Source: Candidatus Margulisiibacteriota bacterium
Lineage (GTDB): Bacteria > Margulisbacteria > Termititenacia > Termititenacales > Termititenacaceae
Length of the DNA: 33,044 nt
Assembly (NCBI GenBank): GCA_031268855.1
Contig: JAIRWS010000077.1
Location: 1-33,044 of the forward strand
Reading direction: 5' to 3'
In this document: piece after piece, positions 12,901-22,945 of the stretch
How the letters are laid out: each line of letters begins with the position of its first letter
Numbering within the stretch: position 1 is the first letter of the stretch
The notes under the pieces: model-generated
Seen by the model: the letters and a program-made list of their open reading frames with translations, nothing else
Told to the model about the DNA's origin: nothing
Databases searched by the model: none
Made by a program: the position numbers and the translations under genes

Positions 12901-14202
12901 ATGGAAATTTTATCCGCCGCAGAGTTATTGATACCCCGGCTAGGCGCGGCCAAATTTCCTGCCGAAAAAACGCTCGGCCACAAAGTAGAGAGCATCCGTG
13001 ACGATGACAAAATCTTTTTTCACCGGCATGTCGCGGATCTGCACCGCTATCTCAAAGAGCCCGGCACGCTGCCGCTGCTGGAGCTGGCCGGCCCGCGCCA
13101 TAAACTTTTTTTTCAGCCGGCCAAAGCCAGACTCGGCATCGTGACCTGCGGGGGCTTGTGTCCGGGCATCAACACAATTATCCGCTCGCTGGTCTTTACG
13201 GCCTATCAATATTACGGCGTCAAAACAGTTTACGGTTTCCGCTACGGTTATTCCGGCCTCAATCCGCGCGTTGGCCTGCCGCCGCTCAAGCTCGATCTCG
13301 CCGCTGTTGACAATATTCACGCCCTGGGCGGCACGATACTCGGTTCGTCACGCGGCCCGCAGGAGGCCAAAGTCATGGTCGATTATCTGGAAAAACTCGG
13401 CCTTAATATTTTATTCGTGGTCGGCGGTGACGGCACGATGCGCGGCGCTCTGGATCTGGCTCAAGAGATCGAAAAACGCCGGTTGGCTGTCGCGCTGATC
13501 GGCGTGCCAAAGACGATAGACAACGACATCGCGTTCATCGAAAGAAGTTTCGGTTTTGAAAGCGCGGTCGAGGAAGCCACGCGCATTATCGCCGCCGCGC
13601 ATATGGAAGCCAAAGGCGCGGTCAATGGCATCGGTCTGGTCAAACTCATGGGGCGTGAATCCGGCTTCATTGCCGCCAACGCCACGCTGGCCAGCTGCGT
13701 GGTCAATTTTTGTCTGATACCGGAAGCGCCTTTTAAACTGGAAAAATTTCTTCAGGATCTGGAGCGGCGCATAAAAAGACGCCACCACGCCGTGATCGTC
13801 ACCGCGGAAGGCGCGGGGCAGGATCTGCTGCCAAAAGGCAAAGCCGCTTTTGACAAATCCGGCAACAAGCGGCTGAATGACATCGGCACATTTTTGAAAA
13901 ACGAGATCAGCAAATACTTCACGCAAAAAAAATTAGAAGCTAACGTGCGCTACATTGATCCCAGCTACGCGATACGTTCGGTCGCGCCCACTGGCGATGA
14001 CAATGTTTTTTGTTTGATGCTGGGACAAAGCGCGGTGCACGCGGCGATGAGCGGCCGCACGGCTATGGTTGTCGGCTATCGCAACGATCATTTTATCCAT
14101 CTGCCGATGGCTCTGGTAACGCGCTTTCGCAAAAAACTGGAGATCAACGGCCGCACCTGGAAAACCGTGCTGGACACCACCGGACAGGCGGATTATAAAT
14201 AA
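12901..14202 (+). CDS. pfkA: ATP-dependent 6-phosphofructokinase
   Basis: Phosphorylates fructose-6-phosphate in glycolysis. The 433-residue form, with an N-terminal extension of about 75 residues, resembles the long spirochaete and plant-type PFK group rather than the 320-residue E. coli PfkA. Motifs are GIVTCGGLCPGIN (79-91), GGDGT (175-179), PKTIDND (203-209) and MGRESGFIAANATLAS. The glycine-threonine in GGDGT is the feature usually linked with ATP rather than pyrophosphate use, although the PKTIDND context is shared with PPi-dependent relatives. It starts 1 nt after the GlmU-like paralogue, tying glycolysis to amino-sugar activation in one operon. It converges with the HipA-like gene. 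Confidence 0.9.
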   Translation: MEILSAAELLIPRLGAAKFPAEKTLGHKVESIRDDDKIFFHRHVADLHRYLKEPGTLPLLELAGPRHKLFFQPAKARLGIVTCGGLCPGINTIIRSLVFTAYQYYGVKTVYGFRYGYSGLNPRVGLPPLKLDLAAVDNIHALGGTILGSSRGPQEAKVMVDYLEKLGLNILFVVGGDGTMRGALDLAQEIEKRRLAVALIGVPKTIDNDIAFIERSFGFESAVEEATRIIAAAHMEAKGAVNGIGLVKLMGRESGFIAANATLASCVVNFCLIPEAPFKLEKFLQDLERRIKRRHHAVIVTAEGAGQDLLPKGKAAFDKSGNKRLNDIGTFLKNEISKYFTQKKLEANVRYIDPSYAIRSVAPTGDDNVFCLMLGQSAVHAAMSGRTAMVVGYRNDHFIHLPMALVTRFRKKLEINGRTWKTVLDTTGQADYK

Positions 14203-14213
14203 TACAAGGAATT

Positions 14214-15353
14214 TTACGGTAGTGCGGACAGTATATATTTCCGATTCCACATCGGGATCTTTTTCTGCAAACAAGCAGTTGCAGCCTTAACTTCTGCAAT
14301 AACCCGCTCGGCCGTTTCTAGGGGAATATTTACTTTTTCAGCCACCTGCAATATGTGTTTTATAGATATTTTCCTAAATTCCCCATCAACCGAAGTATAA
14401 TGTTCCTGGTCTAGAATACGCAGTTTTGAAAAGTTTAAATCATAATTGGGAGACACCCGCCATTTATTATTAACATACAAAAAGGTAAATTTACTAAAAT
14501 GATCATCATGGTCATGAGCAAAAACGTTAAAGCACATTCGTCTAAATAGTTTTATCGTTTCTTCTTTTGACTGGGTTAACTTTAAAGCCAAATTCAACAA
14601 ATCCACATAATCAAGCCTGCCTCCCGGCTTTTCCAATAAAGCATAGGCTGGTAATGAAAGAATTTTCTCGCCGTTCTCAGCATAATCAAATCTTTTTACC
14701 GCTAGATATTTATTTTCTAAAATATTTGTTTCCGGCACATCTAGACCAGCTTTTCGGGCAATATTCGTGTAATAATATTCTCCGTTATTTTCCGAACAAA
14801 CCCAGTGCTCGTTTTTAGATTTGATAATCCAGCACTCTTTGTTAATTTGTGTAAATAAAGCAGTCAAGCGGTGACCATAAACATTCGTGGAATTCTCAAA
14901 AAACTGCTCTAAACTGTCCGGCAAAGCCATATCTAAAACCACGCGAGCTTGCGCACATATCGAACGAAACAGCTTTGTCATTTTTGCTTTAATTTTTACC
15001 GGCCTATAAGACAGACCGCCAATTCCTAAACCAGCTAAAATAGCCAGTTTATCCAGGTAAGACACTTCATTAAGTGCACAGTTATGTATATTTAAAATAT
15101 AATCAATAAGCAGTTTATGATAGCCGTCGTACACGCTAATATTAAAAAGCAATCTATCAACAGAATATTTCCCTCCGGAAACAATTTTATAAAAAAAGGT
15201 TGTTTTTTCCAGCGGCAAAAGGAATGGGGAAATAGAAAAACCTTCTTTCAGCCATTTTCCAGTGTAGGCCAAACCAACCAAATTATTTCTGTATTGTTTT
15301 AATGTTCCTATTTTGGCATTTCTATAATAAACATCCACAGCTTCTACAAACAT
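14214..15353 (-). CDS. HipA-like protein with altered kinase motif
   Basis: A 379-residue relative of the HipA serine/threonine kinase family. Residues 1-115 match the HipA N-terminal subdomain (VDVYYRNAKIGTLKQ, GKWLKEGFSISPFLLPL, LAGLGIGGLSYRP). The C-terminal part has the conserved E-containing helix, GLDVPETNILENKYLAVKRFDY (about 203-224) and FNVFAHDHDDH (275-285). Family members usually read DDHxKNFxF; here it is DDH-F-S-K-FTF, so the Lys and the metal-binding Asn are replaced. The YDL aspartate (D305) is kept. It may be a weak kinase or a pseudokinase. No HipB gene is adjacent; the nearest HTH gene on this locus is at 21396. GAGG precedes the ATG by 8 nt, and the gene overlaps the acyl ligase by 10 nt. 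The coding sequence is AT-rich compared with flanking core genes. Confidence 0.75.
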   Translation of the reverse strand: MFVEAVDVYYRNAKIGTLKQYRNNLVGLAYTGKWLKEGFSISPFLLPLEKTTFFYKIVSGGKYSVDRLLFNISVYDGYHKLLIDYILNIHNCALNEVSYLDKLAILAGLGIGGLSYRPVKIKAKMTKLFRSICAQARVVLDMALPDSLEQFFENSTNVYGHRLTALFTQINKECWIIKSKNEHWVCSENNGEYYYTNIARKAGLDVPETNILENKYLAVKRFDYAENGEKILSLPAYALLEKPGGRLDYVDLLNLALKLTQSKEETIKLFRRMCFNVFAHDHDDHFSKFTFLYVNNKWRVSPNYDLNFSKLRILDQEHYTSVDGEFRKISIKHILQVAEKVNIPLETAERVIAEVKAATACLQKKIPMWNRKYILSALP

Positions 15354-16942
15354 AATTGTCGCCTCGATAATTTAGCAGTTTGATACTTTCCTGCGTCAAG
15401 ATTTTGCGACACTTCATTTAGTCTTATTTTGCCGGAAGATGTGCGCGGTAACGGCTCATAAGAGAGAGCGAATTTTTTTATTTTCTTATGCACAGATAAC
15501 CTGCGGCTTTTTCTAGCCAACTCTTCAGCCACACGCTGATAACAATTCTCCAGCCTAACCACGGGTACTATTACAGCAAAAACCATTTCCCGACCGGCAA
15601 TCCGCCGTCCTAGAACAGCAAGCTCTTTGATCAGCTTAGAGGTCGCGTAATACGGTTCCAATTCTTCAGGATAAATATTTTTGCCGGAATCCAAAACGAT
15701 TACATTTTTTTTACGTCCGGTGATATGCAAATCGTCGTCTTTATCCAAAAACCCCAGATCGCCTGTGGCAAACCAGCTCTCAGGATCAAAGGCTTCTTTA
15801 TTCGCTTGAGGGTTATGGTAATAGCCCGCCATAACTGAAGCGCCTTTCAGATAAATTTCGCCGACACCATTAGTGTCTGGCCGGTGGATTTTTACAAAGT
15901 TTCCACGAAATGGTTTGCCTACACAAGCTGGTTTCGGCTTCTCCACAGAATTACCGCAAAAGCCAGCGGCGGTTTCGGTCAAGCCGTATCCTTCCAATAA
16001 TTTAAAACCAGCTCTCTCATAATAATAAAAATATTTTGGCTTCAGCGGCGCTCCGCCGCTAATGAAAAAACGCACTTTCTTGCCCAGCAACAAACGAATT
16101 GGCTGAAAAAATCCCGCTAATAGTCCACTCAAAATCGGAGTTTTTGGAATATGCAATGCGCTGATAATAATAAAATATTTTAACCTAGCTTGAGCCTTGA
16201 TCTTCTTTAAAACGCTTTCAAATAAAAATTCAAAAATCTGCGGCGTCGCGGCAAAAATCGTTATCGGATATTTAGTAAGACTTTCTATAATATCTCCACT
16301 CTTTGGTGAGTTCTGAAAAATTATTGCCGCGCCATTAAAATAACCGCCCAAAAAACCTGTAACCAATCCATACACATGATAGAACGGCAAAAAAGCTAAA
16401 ATTGTGTCCGACAAATTAATATTAAGATGTTCTCGATAAAAAACCAGCGCGGTGTGAATTAAGTTTGCGTGGGTTAGAGCGACGATTTTAGGCTGGCCAG
16501 CAGAACCAGAGGTGTAAAACAAAGCCGCAATCGTGTCCGGTTTTTGTTGTATGTCTGGTAAGAATGGCTGTTCTACATCAACAGAATTCAGCAAATGTTT
16601 TGTCAGGCTGTAATCAGCAGCTGAAAACTCTGGGGAAACATAAACAGCTTTAGCTTTAACTTTTTTAAGAATTTCTCGGCTTTCTCGAAGAGACCAATTA
16701 ACATCCATGACCAGAACAACCGCTCCTAAAGCCAAAATTGCGCCAAAAGTGAGGCACCAGTCCGCTGAATTTCGGCTTAAAATGCCGACAACATCCCCTG
16801 CTTTAAAACCATGTGTTTTTAAGAAAGCGGCGCGTGCCTGCATTAAACGCCAGACATCCTTGTATGATAAATTTCTTTCGGCAAAACATATTTTGTCAGA
16901 ATATTTAGCAGTTATTTCTTGCGCCAGCAGATAGAAATCCAT
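15344..16942 (-). CDS. AMP-forming acyl ligase (acyl-CoA/acyl-ACP synthetase-like)
   Basis: A full-length 532-residue member of the ANL superfamily, which activates a carboxylic acid as acyl-AMP and passes it to a thiol or amine. It shows the P-loop-like YTSGSAGQPK (143-152), the GYGLTET core motif, TGDLGFLDKDD, GRKKNVIVLDSGKNIYPEELE within the hinge region, and the C-terminal catalytic lysine in TSSGKIRLNEV. The start at 16942 (MDFYLL) lies 5 nt after the stop of the acyltransferase gene; a longer start would overlap that gene. With the NeuD-family acyltransferase upstream it makes a plausible activate-and-transfer pair. The acyl substrate is unknown, and no carrier protein gene is visible nearby. 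Confidence 0.85.
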   Translation of the reverse strand: MDFYLLAQEITAKYSDKICFAERNLSYKDVWRLMQARAAFLKTHGFKAGDVVGILSRNSADWCLTFGAILALGAVVLVMDVNWSLRESREILKKVKAKAVYVSPEFSAADYSLTKHLLNSVDVEQPFLPDIQQKPDTIAALFYTSGSAGQPKIVALTHANLIHTALVFYREHLNINLSDTILAFLPFYHVYGLVTGFLGGYFNGAAIIFQNSPKSGDIIESLTKYPITIFAATPQIFEFLFESVLKKIKAQARLKYFIIISALHIPKTPILSGLLAGFFQPIRLLLGKKVRFFISGGAPLKPKYFYYYERAGFKLLEGYGLTETAAGFCGNSVEKPKPACVGKPFRGNFVKIHRPDTNGVGEIYLKGASVMAGYYHNPQANKEAFDPESWFATGDLGFLDKDDDLHITGRKKNVIVLDSGKNIYPEELEPYYATSKLIKELAVLGRRIAGREMVFAVIVPVVRLENCYQRVAEELARKSRRLSVHKKIKKFALSYEPLPRTSSGKIRLNEVSQNLDAGKYQTAKLSRRQLCL

Positions 16943-16947
16943 ACAAC

Positions 16948-17613
16948 CTACGCTTCCACTCTGCAAAACTTTTTGGCAGGTGCTTTAGACAAAACCGCCA
17001 CGGGCAGCGTGTAAACTTCATTTTCTTTGGTGTTTTTATTGATAAGGCTGCCCATGCCTATGTAATTATCTTTGGCTATTTTTATGCCGTTAGCAATAGT
17101 AGAATTAGCGCCAATAAAGCCATGCTCTCCAACTTCTACGCCTGCAAGGATCAAAGCATGTGGAGCTACATATACATGATCTTTTACTTCCGCTCCATGC
17201 CCAACATAATTACTTCCCATTAAGAAAACATTATCACCGATTTTAGAAAATGGTTGCACAATAACGTTATCTAAAATAATGCAATTTTCCCCAATCTGCA
17301 CGTTAGGCCATACTCTAGCCCCTGCAGATTGATAAGTCGCACAATGATAGCCGAATTTTTTTAACTTCTGAAATAGCCTAGCCCTTCTGTAATTAAGTTG
17401 GCCATAAGCCTGCGCGGCAAAAGCAAAATACTCTTCAGGCGGAAAGATCTTATCAATTTCATCTAACGGACACACCGGTAAGCCAAATTGTTCTTTTTTG
17501 ATAGAAGGAATTTCCGCTGCAAAGCCAGCCACTTTCATGCTGCTATCTTTAGAAAAATATTCGTAAGCAAGCTCTCCAAACAAATCCGTACCAACTATAA
17601 CTACTTTTTTCAT
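16948..17613 (-). CDS. NeuD/PglD-family acyltransferase
   Basis: A 221-residue hexapeptide acyltransferase. The N-terminal PglD-type Rossmann domain begins KKVVIVGTDLFGELAYEYF. The C-terminal left-handed beta-helix includes IGENCIILDNVIVQPFSKIGDNVFL and VYVAPHALILAGVEVGEHGFIGANSTI. Family members O- or N-acylate sugars such as sialic acid or bacillosamine using acyl-CoA or acyl-ACP. It follows the second accessory gene of the RiPP cluster by 8 nt and precedes the acyl ligase, which could supply its acyl donor. Whether its target is a sugar or the cysteine-rich protein is not shown. A TAGAAT hexamer 5 nt before the ATG could be an internal promoter. Confidence 0.82.
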   Translation of the reverse strand: MKKVVIVGTDLFGELAYEYFSKDSSMKVAGFAAEIPSIKKEQFGLPVCPLDEIDKIFPPEEYFAFAAQAYGQLNYRRARLFQKLKKFGYHCATYQSAGARVWPNVQIGENCIILDNVIVQPFSKIGDNVFLMGSNYVGHGAEVKDHVYVAPHALILAGVEVGEHGFIGANSTIANGIKIAKDNYIGMGSLINKNTKENEVYTLPVAVLSKAPAKKFCRVEA

Positions 17614-17621
17614 AATGTATT

Positions 17622-18008
17622 CTATTTAGCAGTGTTCATTATATAAAAATCTTCAGTGTCAAAATCCACAAAGACATTTTTATCTTTCGGCAATTGCGGA
17701 TATTTAACGAATATTTCATTCCACCATTGTCTCTGTAAATTCATGGCCTCCGCTCTGGCATTCAGCGCGGCGTTCACGAACACCTGCACCTGCTCCGCCG
17801 TTACCCCCTGCTGCAATGCCGCCGGTTGCGCAGCCTGCGCCGCGACATTGATCCGGTTGTTTATCAAGATCAAACTCTCCACTTCGTCCCGCGTCGCCTT
17901 GATATTCAGATCCTCTCTCCGCGGATGCACCTTCCCGCAGATCGGGCAGATCTCTGGTTTAGCTTCCGCAACCTCTTTATTTTTACTGCTATCGTTCGTG
18001 TTTGCCAT
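17622..18008 (-). CDS. CXXX-repeat modification-system-like accessory protein (Zn-knuckle variant)
   Basis: A 128-residue protein. Residues 21-28 form CPICGKVH, a likely zinc-binding knuckle. The middle is Ala/Gln-rich and helical. The C-terminus reads RQWWNEIFVKYPQLPKDKN then VFVDFDTEDFYIM. The tail matches that of the small protein at 19289-19600 (W, two to three residues, E, YP, KN, F-V/I-D, T-E/D, Y-x-M), so the two are related. A tryptophan pair followed by a D-F-x-T-E/D-x-Y ending recalls the small CXXX repeat peptide modification system proteins of Bacteroides clusters (from memory). Its role may be substrate recognition for the radical SAM enzyme. GGAGG lies 8 nt before the ATG. Confidence 0.65.
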   Translation of the reverse strand: MANTNDSSKNKEVAEAKPEICPICGKVHPRREDLNIKATRDEVESLILINNRINVAAQAAQPAALQQGVTAEQVQVFVNAALNARAEAMNLQRQWWNEIFVKYPQLPKDKNVFVDFDTEDFYIMNTAK

Positions 18009-18072
18009 ATTTTTTTCCTCCCTGTGTTTTTTTATCTGTAAAGCAAATATCTTTGCCGCCGCGCGCCGAGTC

Positions 18073-19299
18073 TCACTTAACTTCGCTAACGCTTGAGGGG
18101 TGTCTCAAAATAACTGTTCCGTCTTCATTGAAACTCTTTGTCCCCTCGAGTTTGTCATACTCTTCCCAGTATTTCCGGCTCCATTTAGATTGTAATTTGT
18201 GCACTTCGCAGATATTGGTCGTTCGGTAAAACTCTCCTTTTTCGGCAAACGCGCCACCGATACACCAAGCGCAAGAACTCTCTACAGAACAATCCAAACA
18301 TTTTTGAGGTGAAATTTTTTTCCGCGTCTGCTGACGCACTATCTCGAAGCGTTCCTTGTGATTAAGTCCATTCCACACATCACCCACGTAAAAGTCCAGT
18401 TTCCGGCTGTGCATAGTGTTGGGAGAGAAACGGAAACACGGGTATATTTTGCCGTTTATCGACAGGCACGGCATGGAGCCGCTACCGCACCAGCCTTTGT
18501 CTGGAGCATGCATAGGTTCGCCAATACCAAAAGCCTTATCAAACATGCTAACGTATACATCCTGCCGGTGTTCTAATATGTAAGCTATCGATTTTTCCAT
18601 TTCTTTATCGAGTAAGGCTAAGTCATCTTGAGTCAAATGCATATCTTCAAAAATAAAATTCATATTAATATGCTGCAAATTCATTTCTTCATGCAAATAT
18701 TTAATTGATTTAGCCAGATATGGTATAGTGTCCTTGTTACAGGTAGCTTTGGTAGCGGCGCTGTCCACGCCAAATAAAGATATATACCAATTCCACCATT
18801 TCATTATATCTTTCATCGTGCCTGTGCCGTCTTTCCAGATCCGATTTTGGTCATGAATTTCCGGACAGCCGTCCACGCTCACACCAAGCGATAAATTATC
18901 TTTATACTTGAGGATAAAATCTCTGACTTTGGGGTCTTCAAACAATGTCCCGTTGGTGGATATACTCGCCCGCCATCTATATGCCCATTTATGACCCAGA
19001 GATATGGCGCGGCATTGATAGTGTTGAAGGATTTTGTCCAGCAAATCCGGCACCATCAGCGCATCCCCGCCGATAAAGTCTAGAATAAGTCCGTTTTGCA
19101 AAATATGTCTTTCTTTTTCCGTAGCATCGATAGGATTATCATCGTTTAAAATAATATCTATAAATTTCTGCGCATATTCCAAGGGCAGATTTCCCGGACG
19201 CTTATCCACCTCATAACAATATTTGCAGCGCAGATTGCAGTCTTCAGTCACCTGAAAAGTTATGCTTAATCCCGAATATTCCTCTATTCTAGGAATCAT
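18073..19299 (-). CDS. Radical SAM/SPASM peptide maturase, probable CXXX-repeat target type
   Basis: A 408-residue iron-sulfur enzyme that probably modifies the cysteine-rich protein encoded three genes upstream on this strand. The radical SAM cluster motif CNLRCKYC gives C21, C25 and C28, followed by DFIGGDALMV and STNGTLF. The C-terminal SPASM region supplies further cluster cysteines: C271, C278, C288, C334, C337, C343, C346 and C364. This arrangement is typical of RiPP maturases that form thioether or carbon-carbon cross-links. The overall pattern agrees with the family described as radical SAM peptide maturase, CXXX-repeat target family (recalled, not searched). The start overlaps the first accessory gene by 11 nt, indicating coupled translation. 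Confidence 0.88.
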   Translation of the reverse strand: MIPRIEEYSGLSITFQVTEDCNLRCKYCYEVDKRPGNLPLEYAQKFIDIILNDDNPIDATEKERHILQNGLILDFIGGDALMVPDLLDKILQHYQCRAISLGHKWAYRWRASISTNGTLFEDPKVRDFILKYKDNLSLGVSVDGCPEIHDQNRIWKDGTGTMKDIMKWWNWYISLFGVDSAATKATCNKDTIPYLAKSIKYLHEEMNLQHINMNFIFEDMHLTQDDLALLDKEMEKSIAYILEHRQDVYVSMFDKAFGIGEPMHAPDKGWCGSGSMPCLSINGKIYPCFRFSPNTMHSRKLDFYVGDVWNGLNHKERFEIVRQQTRKKISPQKCLDCSVESSCAWCIGGAFAEKGEFYRTTNICEVHKLQSKWSRKYWEEYDKLEGTKSFNEDGTVILRHPSSVSEVK

Positions 19300-19600
19300 G
19301 CGCAGACTCCATTGTATATAATTCGTAAGTTACATAATCTATAAACAATCGATTTTTATTTGTTCCTTTTATTGACGGATAATCCTGCTCAAGCTCGCGC
19401 CAGAAAGCGTCCAGTAAATACTCTGAGTCAGCCATAGTAAAAATTGCTTCTCGAAAAATTCGCTCGGCCTCAGCCGTGGGCATAAAAGCCGGCGCTAGGC
19501 CGGGTTGAGCAGCCTGTCTGGCGCATGCGTATTTATTGGTAGCTAATTCAAATTTTTTGATGGTGTCCCTATTTGCCACCGCAAGTTTACGTTTATGCAT
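19289..19600 (-). CDS. CXXX-repeat modification-system-like accessory protein
   Basis: A 103-residue protein lying between the cysteine-rich target and the radical SAM gene. The N-terminus is basic, with one Cys (residue 26). The C-terminal 40 residues read DAFWRELEQDYPSIKG then NRLFIDYVTYELYTMES, matching the tail of the accessory protein at 17622-18008. It lacks the zinc knuckle of that protein. The ATG is 3 nt after the target stop codon, and its GGAG ribosome-binding site lies inside the last codons of the target gene, so translation is coupled. Position and shared tail suggest a recognition or scaffold subunit for the maturase; this is inferred. Confidence 0.65.
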   Translation of the reverse strand: MHKRKLAVANRDTIKKFELATNKYACARQAAQPGLAPAFMPTAEAERIFREAIFTMADSEYLLDAFWRELEQDYPSIKGTNKNRLFIDYVTYELYTMESAHDS

Positions 19601-19603
19601 AAC

Positions 19604-21247
19604 CTACTCTCCGGCGCCTATATAAGCCGTCGTGCTGACAGGCGAAGCGCCGCTGGCTGGGTCTGTGCCGATCCGCGCCGTATGTGCGCAGCCGCTAAAA
19701 CACCCGCTGCTGCAGGCCGTGTAACAATTGTTCCGGCAGTTCGTGCTGCAATTTATATGACAGGCATTAGTGCAGTTGCTCGTGCAGGCGGAAACCCCGC
19801 AATCACTGCCGCAGTCTTTCCGGCAGGCCGCGTAACAATTATTCTCGCAGGCGGCATTGCCGCAGGTCGTACTACAAGAGCCTTTGCAGCCGCCATAGCA
19901 TGTCTCCAGGCAGCCGCCAGTGCATGTTCCTCCGCAAGAACCCTGGCAGCCGCTACTACAACCTACGGTACACTGACCAATACAGGACGTACTACATTCT
20001 CCCTGGCAGCCGTTATTGCAGCCGCCGGAGCAACCATCGGTACAGGTGATTTGACAGCCGTCTCCGCAGTTAGAGGTACAGCCGCTAGTACAAGCGCTAG
20101 ACTGACAGCCGGTACCACAGTTCCCACTACAACCACCAGTACAGGTTGTTTGACAGCCGTCATTACAACCAGTGGTGCAGCCGCTGTTGCAATCTCCAAG
20201 ACAGCCGCCGGAGCAGCCCTGACAGGAACGCTCACATTTGCTACCATTGTCAGCATAACCAGTACAACGATCCCCGCAGCCGCCTTTGCACACATCACCG
20301 CACAAAGTATTACAGCCGCCGCCGCAAGTTCCATAACAATTGCTTCTACATCCACTACTGCAACCACCGCCGCAGAGATTAGTACAAGTGTTAGCCCCGC
20401 AGCCACCTTCACAACCATTGCCACAGGTACCAGCACAGCCGCTTTTACATTTGTCCAGACAGCCGCCACCGCAGGTTCCAGCACATTCTTCTCCGCAATA
20501 CGTAGCGCAGCCGCCGCCGCAAGCCGCTGTGCAGCCATTCCCACAGCCAGTTGTACAGCCAGTACCGCAATCCGCAGTGCAGTTTGTGCCGCAAGCTGAA
20601 GTGCAGGCCGTACCGCAGCCTCCTGTGCAATTATTGCCACAGCCTACAGAGCAGGCCTGACTGCAGCCGCCGTCGCAAGCGCCACCGCAGTTTACGCTGC
20701 AAAGGGCAAAACAATTTGATCCGCAGCCCAGCCCGCAGGCTGATGTGCAACCAACACACCGCGCGTTATTCAGCGCGTCATCGATAACCTGTCTGATCTC
20801 TTCCAAATGCCTGGCCCTGAGCCTGGTGGCCAGAGCCGTTATATTTTCGTTCCAGGGGAATGTGCCGCTGCCGTTATAATTAACCAGACCCTGTGTAGCC
20901 GCGCGCAAAAGCACGAGCTGATTTGCCTCTATTTTAGTTTTATCCTTTACAACCGGATCTATGCTCTTACCAATTGCTTGAGTTGCTGTTAGTGACGCAT
21001 AATACGGCTCACCTACCGCACTAACCACGCCGCCCTGCGCAAAATTTACTTTTCGGTCTATTTCTGTTTTGAGATTGGCCAGAGTCTGATTATAATCCGC
21101 CGCGTAAGCCTCTTTGTTGGATAAATAATTTTGTTTTTTCTTCTCAGCCGTGTCCGCCAGTCCCACATTGGTTGTCGGTGTTCCGCCCGCCCCTGTCAAC
21201 GGTTCCTCTGCCGTGCTGTCCGGCGTCCGGTATTTGTAGCGCGCCAT
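19604..21247 (-). CDS. Giant CXXX-repeat cysteine-rich RiPP-like target protein
   Basis: A 547-residue protein with 88 cysteines, all between residues 164 and 520. Of 87 Cys-to-Cys gaps, 80 are exactly three residues; the others are 2, 2, 4, 4, 4, 4 and 9. Residues 1-163 have no cysteine, are mostly helical in composition, and would be an unusually long leader; the last 27 residues are a Gly/Ala/Ser/Thr-rich tail. The start at 21247 is chosen because AAGGGGG lies 7 nt upstream; two in-frame ATGs further upstream lack such a site or are too close to it. The protein resembles the annotated modification target Cys-rich repeat group, but with far more cysteines than the Bacteroides peptides I recall. 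No signal peptide or GG-type cleavage site is clear, and no protease or exporter gene is adjacent. Confidence 0.82.
   Translation of the reverse strand: MARYKYRTPDSTAEEPLTGAGGTPTTNVGLADTAEKKKQNYLSNKEAYAADYNQTLANLKTEIDRKVNFAQGGVVSAVGEPYYASLTATQAIGKSIDPVVKDKTKIEANQLVLLRAATQGLVNYNGSGTFPWNENITALATRLRARHLEEIRQVIDDALNNARCVGCTSACGLGCGSNCFALCSVNCGGACDGGCSQACSVGCGNNCTGGCGTACTSACGTNCTADCGTGCTTGCGNGCTAACGGGCATYCGEECAGTCGGGCLDKCKSGCAGTCGNGCEGGCGANTCTNLCGGGCSSGCRSNCYGTCGGGCNTLCGDVCKGGCGDRCTGYADNGSKCERSCQGCSGGCLGDCNSGCTTGCNDGCQTTCTGGCSGNCGTGCQSSACTSGCTSNCGDGCQITCTDGCSGGCNNGCQGECSTSCIGQCTVGCSSGCQGSCGGTCTGGCLETCYGGCKGSCSTTCGNAACENNCYAACRKDCGSDCGVSACTSNCTNACHINCSTNCRNNCYTACSSGCFSGCAHTARIGTDPASGASPVSTTAYIGAGE
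19688..20758 (-). repeat. 12-nt periodic CXXX-coding repeat tract
   Basis: About 1.07 kb in which a Cys codon occurs every 12 nt with few breaks (residues 164-520 of the target). Between the 11th and 41st Cys there is an 8-residue super-period: Gly follows 14 of the 16 odd-numbered Cys but none of the 15 even-numbered ones. In the second half, residues 361-384 and 394-417 are near copies, 33 residues apart (DG-C-Q-x-T-C-T-x-G-C-S-G pattern). The periodicity also opens long spurious frames on the other strand. Confidence 0.85.
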
Positions 21248-21278
21248 AAACATACCCCCTTTTAGTGTGTCTTTGGTT

Positions 21279-21312: not shown

Positions 21313-21340
21313 ATTATACAGCCTATCGTCTTTAAGTCAA
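21313..21340 (-). promoter_or_regulatory. Promoter of the CXXX-repeat cluster
   Basis: On the minus strand: TTGACT (21340-21335), a 16-nt spacer, TATAAT (21318-21313). Transcription would start near 21306, giving a leader of about 60 nt. It probably drives the whole seven-gene run down to the HipA-like gene, because all intergenic gaps below it are under 65 nt. Confidence 0.7.
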
Positions 21341-21395: not shown

Positions 21396-21737
21396 ATGGA
21401 AGATGATTTGTTAACACATATCGGCAGCACAATACGCACTCTGCGCAAAAAGCAAGGCTTGTCTATGGAACAGTTAGCTGACAAAGCAAATATTCATCTA
21501 ACCTATCTGGCACAGATCGAAAAAGGCCAGCGCAATCTGTCGATTAAATCTTTTTGGCAGCTCGCCGCGGCTCTGAGCATCAAGCCGGTGTCGCTCCTGC
21601 CGGAAAACCGCCAGATCAACACACGCGACAATTATCTCAACAGGATCGTTCCGGTTTTGAATAAACTGGAGCCGCAGAAAAAAGAAATCGTCCTGCATAT
21701 GGTCAAAGAATTATCTTTGCAGCTGGCGCGGGTTTAA
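21396..21737 (+). CDS. Xre-family helix-turn-helix regulator
   Basis: A 113-residue protein with an N-terminal Xre/HTH_3 DNA-binding domain (about residues 8-68): IGSTIRTLRKKQGLSMEQLADKA, then LAQIEKGQRNLSIKSFWQLAAAL. The C-terminal 45 residues are charged and helical, probably for dimerisation. It is divergent from the CXXX-repeat gene, with an inverted repeat in that gene's leader, so it likely controls the cluster. The arrangement mirrors the Xre/tail-collar pair at 6.2-7.4 kb, although the two Xre proteins are not close copies. A relation to HipB is possible because a HipA-like gene ends the same operon, but the distance makes this speculative. Confidence 0.85.
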   Translation: MEDDLLTHIGSTIRTLRKKQGLSMEQLADKANIHLTYLAQIEKGQRNLSIKSFWQLAAALSIKPVSLLPENRQINTRDNYLNRIVPVLNKLEPQKKEIVLHMVKELSLQLARV

Positions 21738-21785: not shown

Positions 21786-21896
21786 ATGAATAAAGCTAAA
21801 AAGAAAACCGCTGAACAATTGAGAAAACAAATCAAGAAAACCGTTCAGGACATATTCAAAAAATATGAAGATGTTTTTGTAACTTTGAGCAAGTAA
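21786..21896 (+). CDS. 36-residue Lys-rich peptide, possible antitoxin of the Doc-like gene
   Basis: Encodes MNKAKKKTAEQLRKQIKK followed by a short amphipathic tail ending VFVTLSK. Its TAA stop overlaps the ATG of the Doc-like gene by one base (TAATG), the coupling expected of an antitoxin-toxin pair. It is too short to hold a standard Phd DNA-binding domain and could correspond to only the toxin-neutralising segment. No family is recognised. The call rests on the overlap, the -10 box placed as at other genes, and the lack of another upstream partner. Confidence 0.5.
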   Translation: MNKAKKKTAEQLRKQIKKTVQDIFKKYEDVFVTLSK

Positions 21897-22306
21897 TGAA
21901 AACGCTTATTTCCAGCGAGGCTATACAATATATCTATGCTGATTATGTTGTTGTTTGCGCACAGAAAAATCTGCCGGCACAGGAACGATTGACAGAAAAA
22001 CAACAGGCCGAAATTTTCGGCGTTATTAAGTCCGCAGCCAATGTAGTTTTCGGAAAAAAACTGTATCCTACAGTTTTACAACAGGCCGCTTTTATTCTTT
22101 ATACACTAAATAAAAGACATATATTGCTAGATGGCAATAAAAGATTTTCTTTAATGCTGGTTTTGTATATTTTACATGAATACAAAATAGATGACACAAA
22201 AATGTCCACAGACGATTGGGAAATGCTGATTATCCGCATTGCGGCAGATGTTAATTATTCATTAGAAAAAACCACTGCTTTTCTAGAAAATAAGCTGGCT
22301 TCATAG
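21896..22306 (+). CDS. Doc-like Fic-fold toxin
   Basis: A 136-residue protein of the Fic/Doc fold. The central motif is H75-ILLDGNKR (75-83), corresponding to HxFxDGNKR of Doc, which phosphorylates EF-Tu; the usual Phe is Leu here. Doc has Lys rather than Gly before the motif Arg, as seen here, while AMPylating Fic proteins have Gly. The length equals that of P1 Doc (about 126 residues). It overlaps the 36-residue gene by one base. The coding sequence is AT-rich, consistent with horizontal acquisition. Confidence 0.72.
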   Translation: MKTLISSEAIQYIYADYVVVCAQKNLPAQERLTEKQQAEIFGVIKSAANVVFGKKLYPTVLQQAAFILYTLNKRHILLDGNKRFSLMLVLYILHEYKIDDTKMSTDDWEMLIIRIAADVNYSLEKTTAFLENKLAS

Positions 22307-22339
22307 GTGCTTGGTAACGCAACCAAAAACGAACATACC

Positions 22340-22368
22340 TTGACAGCAATGTTTTTCGTGCATACAAT
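22340..22368 (+). promoter_or_regulatory. Consensus promoter of brnTA (leaderless)
   Basis: TTGACA (22340-22345), a 17-nt spacer, TACAAT (22363-22368), then 6 nt to the GTG start at 22375. It is the clearest complete leaderless promoter in the window. Confidence 0.7.
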
Positions 22369-22374
22369 ATATCC

Positions 22375-22671
22375 GTGCGGTTTGAATGGGACGAACAAAA
22401 AAATAAAGCCAACCTGGAAAAACATGGCTACGATTTTAGCGTGGGAATTATTGCGCTGAACGACCCTGACGCCATAACTGCCGAGGACATACGAAAAGAC
22501 TACGGAGAGATTAGAGAAATAACCATTGGTAAGATAGCCGCTGAAATTTTTGTGGTGGTCATTCATACTGAAAGAAACAACGTTACCAGGATAATCTCTG
22601 TGCGTCCGGCAAACAAAAAAGAAAGGAGAAAATACTATGAGTACAACCAGAATAACTTTAAAAGAAGCTAA
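22375..22671 (+). CDS. brnT: BrnT-family toxin
   Basis: A 98-residue RelE-fold ribonuclease toxin of the BrnT family. It begins RFEWDEQKNKANLEKHGYDF, the diagnostic BrnT opening, and has ITIGKIAAEIFVVVIHTER and ISVRPANKKERRKYYE near the end. The start is GTG at 22375, placed 6 nt behind TACAAT. The last 35 nt overlap brnA, the usual toxin-first order of this module. BrnA probably represses the pair by binding at the promoter. Confidence 0.88.
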   Translation: MRFEWDEQKNKANLEKHGYDFSVGIIALNDPDAITAEDIRKDYGEIREITIGKIAAEIFVVVIHTERNNVTRIISVRPANKKERRKYYEYNQNNFKRS

Positions 22672-22945
22672 AAAAAGGCTGACCCCGGCGATGCTCAAAC
22701 GCCTGCGCGTTAAGGACAGCGAGATAGATTATGCGGAAATTCCTGAACTTGATGAGAATTTCTGGACTAAGGCCAAGCCGCGGCGCGGCCGGCCTAAAAA
22801 AGAGGTTTGCAAAGACATGGTCAACCTGCGGCTTGATCATTTTTCTGTGCTGGCTTTGAGACATAGCGGCAAAGGCTGGCAGACCCGGGTCGGCGAATAT
22901 ATCAATCAGGGAATTAAGAATGGGGTGCTTTTGCCCAAATTTTAA
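22637..22945 (+). CDS. brnA: BrnA-family antitoxin
   Basis: A 102-residue antitoxin to BrnT. It contains the typical central EIPELDENFWTKAKPRRGRPKKE stretch, read in two parts (EIPELDENFWTKAK, then PRRGRPKKE), and a C-terminal ribbon-helix-helix segment (VNLRLDHFSVLALRHSGKGW, then QTRVGEYINQGIK) that binds DNA. The start is supported by AAAGGAG upstream of the ATG, inside brnT. Overlap with brnT keeps the two products linked. Confidence 0.88.
   Translation: MSTTRITLKEAKKRLTPAMLKRLRVKDSEIDYAEIPELDENFWTKAKPRRGRPKKEVCKDMVNLRLDHFSVLALRHSGKGWQTRVGEYINQGIKNGVLLPKF

Follow-up and report, generated by a model that had tools for sequence, protein, structure and literature searches.

A divergent CXXX-repeat target and radical SAM maturase cassette present in several copies in Candidatus Termititenax

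CXXX-repeat systems are known as sequence predictions, and we know of no experimentally solved product of any of them. In the Bacteroides type, a CXXX target lies beside a TIGR04115-like radical SAM/SPASM enzyme and a TIGR04116-like partner. The example used here for comparison (L144, MT837480) reaches 630 bits with TIGR04115 and 104.6 bits with TIGR04116, and also carries TIGR04119, a twin-arginine N-terminus on the target and TatA/TatC-like genes. Other pairs, of a phrog_1802-like kind, are found in phages (L145-L236, the jumbo phages Seoulvirus and Machinavirus, and the prophage-like L050 of Desulfocucumis). PapB of the PapA/PapB ranthipeptides (freyrasin) joins Cys to Asp/Glu in CX3D/E motifs (PMC9413430), the cysteine lying four residues from its acceptor. 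In the literature searched, no description of a phage link was found, nor any paper naming the CXXX models.

The window, that is, the whole stretch of 33,044 nucleotides analysed, comes from a member of Candidatus Termititenax (Margulisbacteria, termite gut), a lineage that attaches to ectosymbiotic spirochaetes. Seven ORFs, all on the minus strand, span positions 21247 to 14214 in the ORF list of the window. Their coordinates agree with the first-pass annotation, which had described seven one-strand genes with gaps of at most 64 nt and several overlaps. A CXXX-repeat target of 547 aa (19604-21247) is followed by a first accessory protein, acc1 (19289-19600, 103 aa), a radical SAM/SPASM maturase of the CXXX-target type (18073-19299, 408 aa) and a second accessory protein, acc2 (17622-18008, 128 aa). 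Then come a NeuD/PglD-type hexapeptide acyltransferase (16948-17613), an AMP-forming acyl ligase (15344-16966) and a HipA-like protein with a kinase fold (14214-15353). The gaps are 3 nt between target and acc1, 64 nt between the radical SAM gene and acc2, and 8 nt between acc2 and NeuD; acc1 and the radical SAM gene overlap by 11 nt, ligase and HipA by 10 nt. NeuD and ligase overlap by 19 nt only if the ligase starts at TTG 16966; the in-frame ATG at 16942, its probable start, leaves a gap of 5 nt. Pfam and NCBIfam matches back the earlier gene labels: TIGR04115 for the radical SAM enzyme (274 bits, E 1.8e-81), TIGR03570 for NeuD (151 bits, 2.3e-44), PF00501 for the ligase (224 bits, 2.4e-66), and PF07804 (106 bits, 2.7e-30) with PF13657 (26 bits) for the HipA-like protein.

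On the plus strand, a divergent XRE-type regulator (21396-21737, PF01381) lies upstream of the target; such a gene belongs to the cassette of most relatives. Between the two, a consensus scan found a promoter-like site on the minus strand (TTGACT-16-TATAAT, 21313-21340, 11/12 positions), whose position would suit a candidate promoter of the target. In the window, Rfam and tRNA scans found nothing. Upstream of the cassette, positions 21896-22945 hold a Doc/Fic-like gene and a pair that we take to be BrnT/BrnA-like.

The target call rests on the ORF, the cysteine spacing and 15 aligned paralogues. The protein comprises a helical N-domain of 163 aa (20759-21247, with an alternative ATG at 21253), a core of 88 cysteines and a tail of 27 aa, and about 16% of the whole is cysteine. 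The CXXX periodicity is far above chance: 80 of the 87 successive cysteine pairs have a spacing of exactly four residues, whereas 1000 shuffles of the core gave 9.3 such pairs on average and never more than 20. Across 16 Termititenax targets, the N-domain and a C-terminal cap are conserved, and the spacing is mostly exact CXXX, with 55 to 137 cysteines each and more than 100 in several. The Termititenax arrays also show an 8-residue superperiod, CXXXCGXX: the probability of glycine at the first X is 0.65 two units on and 0.10 one unit on. X positions are rich in Gly, Ser, Thr, Ala and Asn, and Asp and Glu together make up only 6-14% of them. A full-length AF2 model, built on a 16-sequence alignment, gave an uninformative pLDDT of about 30 for the core, as expected if the fold depends on covalent links and as an ordinary disordered protein would give likewise. 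The target matched no NCBIfam or Pfam model; with regard to TIGR04114, the target model of the CXXX-repeat set, this says little, given the low complexity of the sequence. The cassette showed neither a signal peptide or Tat motif nor an exporter.

The best model for the radical SAM enzyme, TIGR04115, has a cut-off of 350 bits, which none of 74 phylum genomes passed; high-scoring enzymes in the phylum were found only in the genus of the window and in one genome of a sister genus. The second-best model was the PapB thioether family (153 bits, cut-off 340), and the best match of solved structure was 5wgg (70 bits). The CxxxCxxC motif and the SPASM cysteines were invariant in alignments A2 and A3. 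The closest named relatives are from Candidatus Termititenax aidoneus and T. persephonae, together with Margulisiibacteriota MAGs. In a tree of 67 rows, rooted at the midpoint only, the 18 Termititenax-family rows formed one clade (99/98). A long-branched Elusimicrobiota row, probably from a termite gut to judge from isolate naming, joined it (100/98), apart from the phage, Bacteroides-type and Clostridia rows.

The two accessory proteins had been noted to share a C-terminal tail. The tail is indeed common to both, but the homology is not limited to it, extending over about 94 profile columns (hhalign probability 98.7%, P 2e-16); acc2 has in addition an N-terminal, zinc-ribbon-like CxxC stretch (CPIC). 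acc2 matched TIGR04116 at 20.3 bits, against a cut-off of 50, and acc1 matched no family model in the NCBIfam and Pfam scans. The DFxTxEL-type C-terminal motif of acc1 is common to TIGR04116 and the phage partners. In hhalign against the latter, however, acc1 and acc2 aligned over a short tail region alone (probabilities 19% and 9%), and homology with the phage partners is thus unproven. In relatives, acc1 is kept between target and radical SAM gene in Termititenax, and acc2 downstream of the latter.

Altogether, the proposal that the first four genes form a CXXX-repeat target/maturase system is upheld by TIGR04115 as best model of the enzyme, the extreme CXXX target and the weak TIGR04116 match of acc2. 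A model search had been suggested for the enzyme and its accessories; the NCBIfam scan returned a CXXX-type family as the best for the enzyme and, weakly, one for acc2, this divergent branch staying below the curated cut-offs. The window cassette is thus a diverged form of an already predicted system, with 274 and 20 bits where the Bacteroides-type example has 630 and 104.6. Its target is also far larger and bears the 163-aa N-domain, and the cassette has an XRE regulator and two accessory paralogues and lacks TIGR04119. This second maturase had no above-cut-off match in 8 genomes, and its weak match in the window was the radical SAM protein itself. The interesting part is the pattern, multicopy in a symbiont and linked to phage tails.

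The cassette is dispersed and multicopy in Termititenax, with at least six targets in some genomes. Searched with the radical SAM enzyme, six genomes of the genus yielded 33 matches at E<=0.001, the strong ones having 73-100% identity and many of these being full-length. With the target N-domain as query, the window genome and G004 gave hits at six sites each and G001 at six or more, the remaining three genomes having fewer; these counts are rough, many copies being cut at contig ends. Target, acc1, radical SAM gene and usually acc2 co-occur at many loci in this order, with a divergent HTH gene upstream of most resolved targets. The full-length cassettes sampled have intact ORFs and housekeeping neighbours, and no phage genes. 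Flanks (fli, rlmN, purF, lepA) are swapped between cassettes in L033/L045, L034/L039 and L035/L047.

Relatives of the system are widespread in phages. A tblastn search with the window enzyme found 78 phage records, those of Erwinia and Salmonella jumbo phages among them, and numerous contigs of phages, jumbo phages included, had radical SAM/CXXX-target pairs (L145, L146, L147, L148-L236). Some records filed as phage may be bacterial, as illustrated by L144, which is so filed and resembles a piece of Bacteroides-type chromosome. In IMG/VR, the fetched stretch held a CXXX-rich ORF at 75 of 90 loci, in most cases no more than about 3 kb from the enzyme. For 92 neighbour ORFs from 25 loci, a PHROG scan placed tail fibre, tail, baseplate and endolysin among the commonest families, these being raw counts of only 2-4 members per family. 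Another CXXX pair lies within a phage or tailocin tail module in Desulfocucumis palustris (L050:5635-13536).

As in the window, target and enzyme are adjacent in the phage pairs, often with a small partner of the DFxTxEL type, and many phage targets have a non-Cys domain bearing an ADFxxLKxxVxxExxRR-like motif. By contrast, the phage enzymes belong to another clade, the sampled phage arrays showed no CGxx superperiod, and the genes are sited among tail and lysis genes. Profile comparison of the N-domain with the phage non-Cys domain gave a score of 29.2 (probability 56%, P 1e-4), the best of 100 column shuffles being 13.4; this resemblance is suggestive, not proof. With the N-domain as query, Foldseek against viral models returned no match under E 0.001, and the PHROGs search returned none. 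At rank 12 of the Foldseek matches was a 200-aa Myoviridae protein named six-cysteine peptide SCIFF (BFVD A0A8S5UTL8, TM 0.42, not significant), which may be a misnamed CXXX target.

The last three genes had been proposed to extend the modification pathway. This could not be sustained: the corresponding slots of relatives are empty or otherwise filled, and the trio deviates in GC3. In a check of related neighbourhoods set beforehand, the trio was absent behind every other resolved cassette of the genus and of the sister genus. The window cassette abuts a convergent PFK-type gene (12901-14202, plus strand), which lies outside the system and fixes the positional ortholog, and two sugar-nucleotidyltransferase-like genes. 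The PFK-SNT2 stretch adjoining the cassette in L043 and L092 is 88-90% identical to that of the window. In L092 (G004), acc2 directly meets PFK, the stops overlapping with nothing between; in L043 (T. aidoneus), a GT2 glycosyltransferase lies between them. These two positional orthologs led us to reject a conserved seven-gene operon. In L036, a second radical SAM gene is followed by a 51-residue PFK remnant (13487-13639), which suggests that the same slot there formerly held the second radical SAM gene. Swapped flanks and this remnant may reflect either recombination between copies or assembly chimeras. GC3 is 33-38% in the trio, 45.5% in the radical SAM gene, 59.7% in acc2 and 62-65% in PFK and its neighbours.

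Individually, the three genes have different distributions. NeuD, whose best solved match is a perosamine N-acetyltransferase, was without a match at E<=1e-15 when 73 other genomes of the phylum were searched. Each of the six genomes of the genus has ligase paralogues (43-48%), most of them at a distance from CXXX loci; L039, L310 and L312 have one upstream of a target, with the divergent HTH and another gene in between. The DxDDH and YDL motifs of the HipA-like protein align with the sequence of a HipT structure. Its one other match in the genus (L080) lies in a glycosyltransferase cluster, not at a CXXX locus; there, a fusion of GT2 with a radical SAM/SPASM region (401-2458) has a second GT2 and this HipA match as neighbours. 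Pairing HipA with the upstream HTH gene as HipBA was considered and rejected, the HTH belonging with the cassette: no HTH gene adjoins HipA, the nearest is 6 kb off and divergent, and its 85% relative (in L313) accompanies a cassette in G004, a genome without a HipA match. NeuD, ligase and HipA are thus best read as a lineage-specific insert, variable cargo behind acc2 and not core. Judging from spacing, they are likely co-transcribed with the cassette, and any action on the product would, if at all, be an optional or private tailoring step.

We regard it as fairly probable that the locus is one of several dispersed, divergent CXXX cassettes whose SPASM enzyme crosslinks the cysteine array into a surface-acting rod or fibre. 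Our leading interpretation is that thioether links are formed in a surface or fibre protein. The conserved N-domain, as a presumed leader, and the TIGR04116-like accessory proteins would guide the enzyme to the target. The enzyme would then move along the array, linking cysteine sulfur to nearby carbons, and a chain that would be disordered without these crosslinks would become a rigid rod or fibre, which, presumably after export, would act at the cell surface. Both the family of the enzyme and the spacing of the array suggest radical crosslinking of the cysteines. The X positions are without the Asp/Glu acceptors of the PapB type, so that a different linkage, or a modification other than a thioether, is possible. 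It is unlikely, in our view, that the array instead binds metal or clusters, or is stabilised by disulfides, with the enzyme modifying one or a few sites only; the high cysteine share, the targets with more than 100 cysteines and the lack of an acidic acceptor bias would fit such a protein, but CXXX arrays and this enzyme type recur jointly in phage, Bacteroides-type and Termititenax loci, and the model next after TIGR04115 is a thioether-forming family.

We give still less weight to a single seven-gene pathway, in which, once the radical SAM enzyme had acted, ligase and NeuD would acylate the product and the HipA-like kinase would phosphorylate it. Tight spacing and the lack of a convincing terminator between acc2 and NeuD speak for it. 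Tailoring genes may also gather behind cassettes, as the second radical SAM genes (L036, L041/L042, L315) and, in L043, the glycosyltransferase tail and a maturase-GT2 fusion illustrate. Against it stand the empty or differently filled slots, the absence of the trio from all other resolved cassettes, its GC3 and the isolation of NeuD in the phylum. Least probable of all, in our judgement, is that the cassettes are left over from phages, or are domesticated modules of tail fibres, and have no present cellular function: the phage relatives near tail genes and the N-domain likeness would agree with such an origin, but the sampled cassettes are intact, mostly with a divergent regulator, among housekeeping genes, and the enzyme tree sets Termititenax and the Elusimicrobiota row apart from the phage clade. 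Returning to crosslinking as the preferred reading, it is possible, though we advance it only tentatively, that CXXX-repeat enzymes make thioether-stapled rods which serve contact, as tail-fibre parts in phages and, in Termititenax, as surface fibres built from a multigene family of very large rods; its cassettes would recombine with one another and exchange the tailoring genes behind acc2.

The size and copy number of the Termititenax family (55-137 cysteines, at least six copies in some genomes) suggest that radical SAM modification is usable on giant structural proteins and is then not confined to small peptides. Purified virions of the phage relatives, including Seoulvirus and Machinavirus with cultured hosts, are a direct place to seek the chemistry.

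Two further observations were made at related loci. In T. aidoneus (L043:3-1826), a CXXX maturase is fused in-frame to a GT2 domain and followed by acc2 and another GT2. The proteins encoded at L044:15368-16540, which had no Pfam match, and at L084:163-1209 have similar N-termini around YNIDTGKxLSAAGVRxALHTKE.
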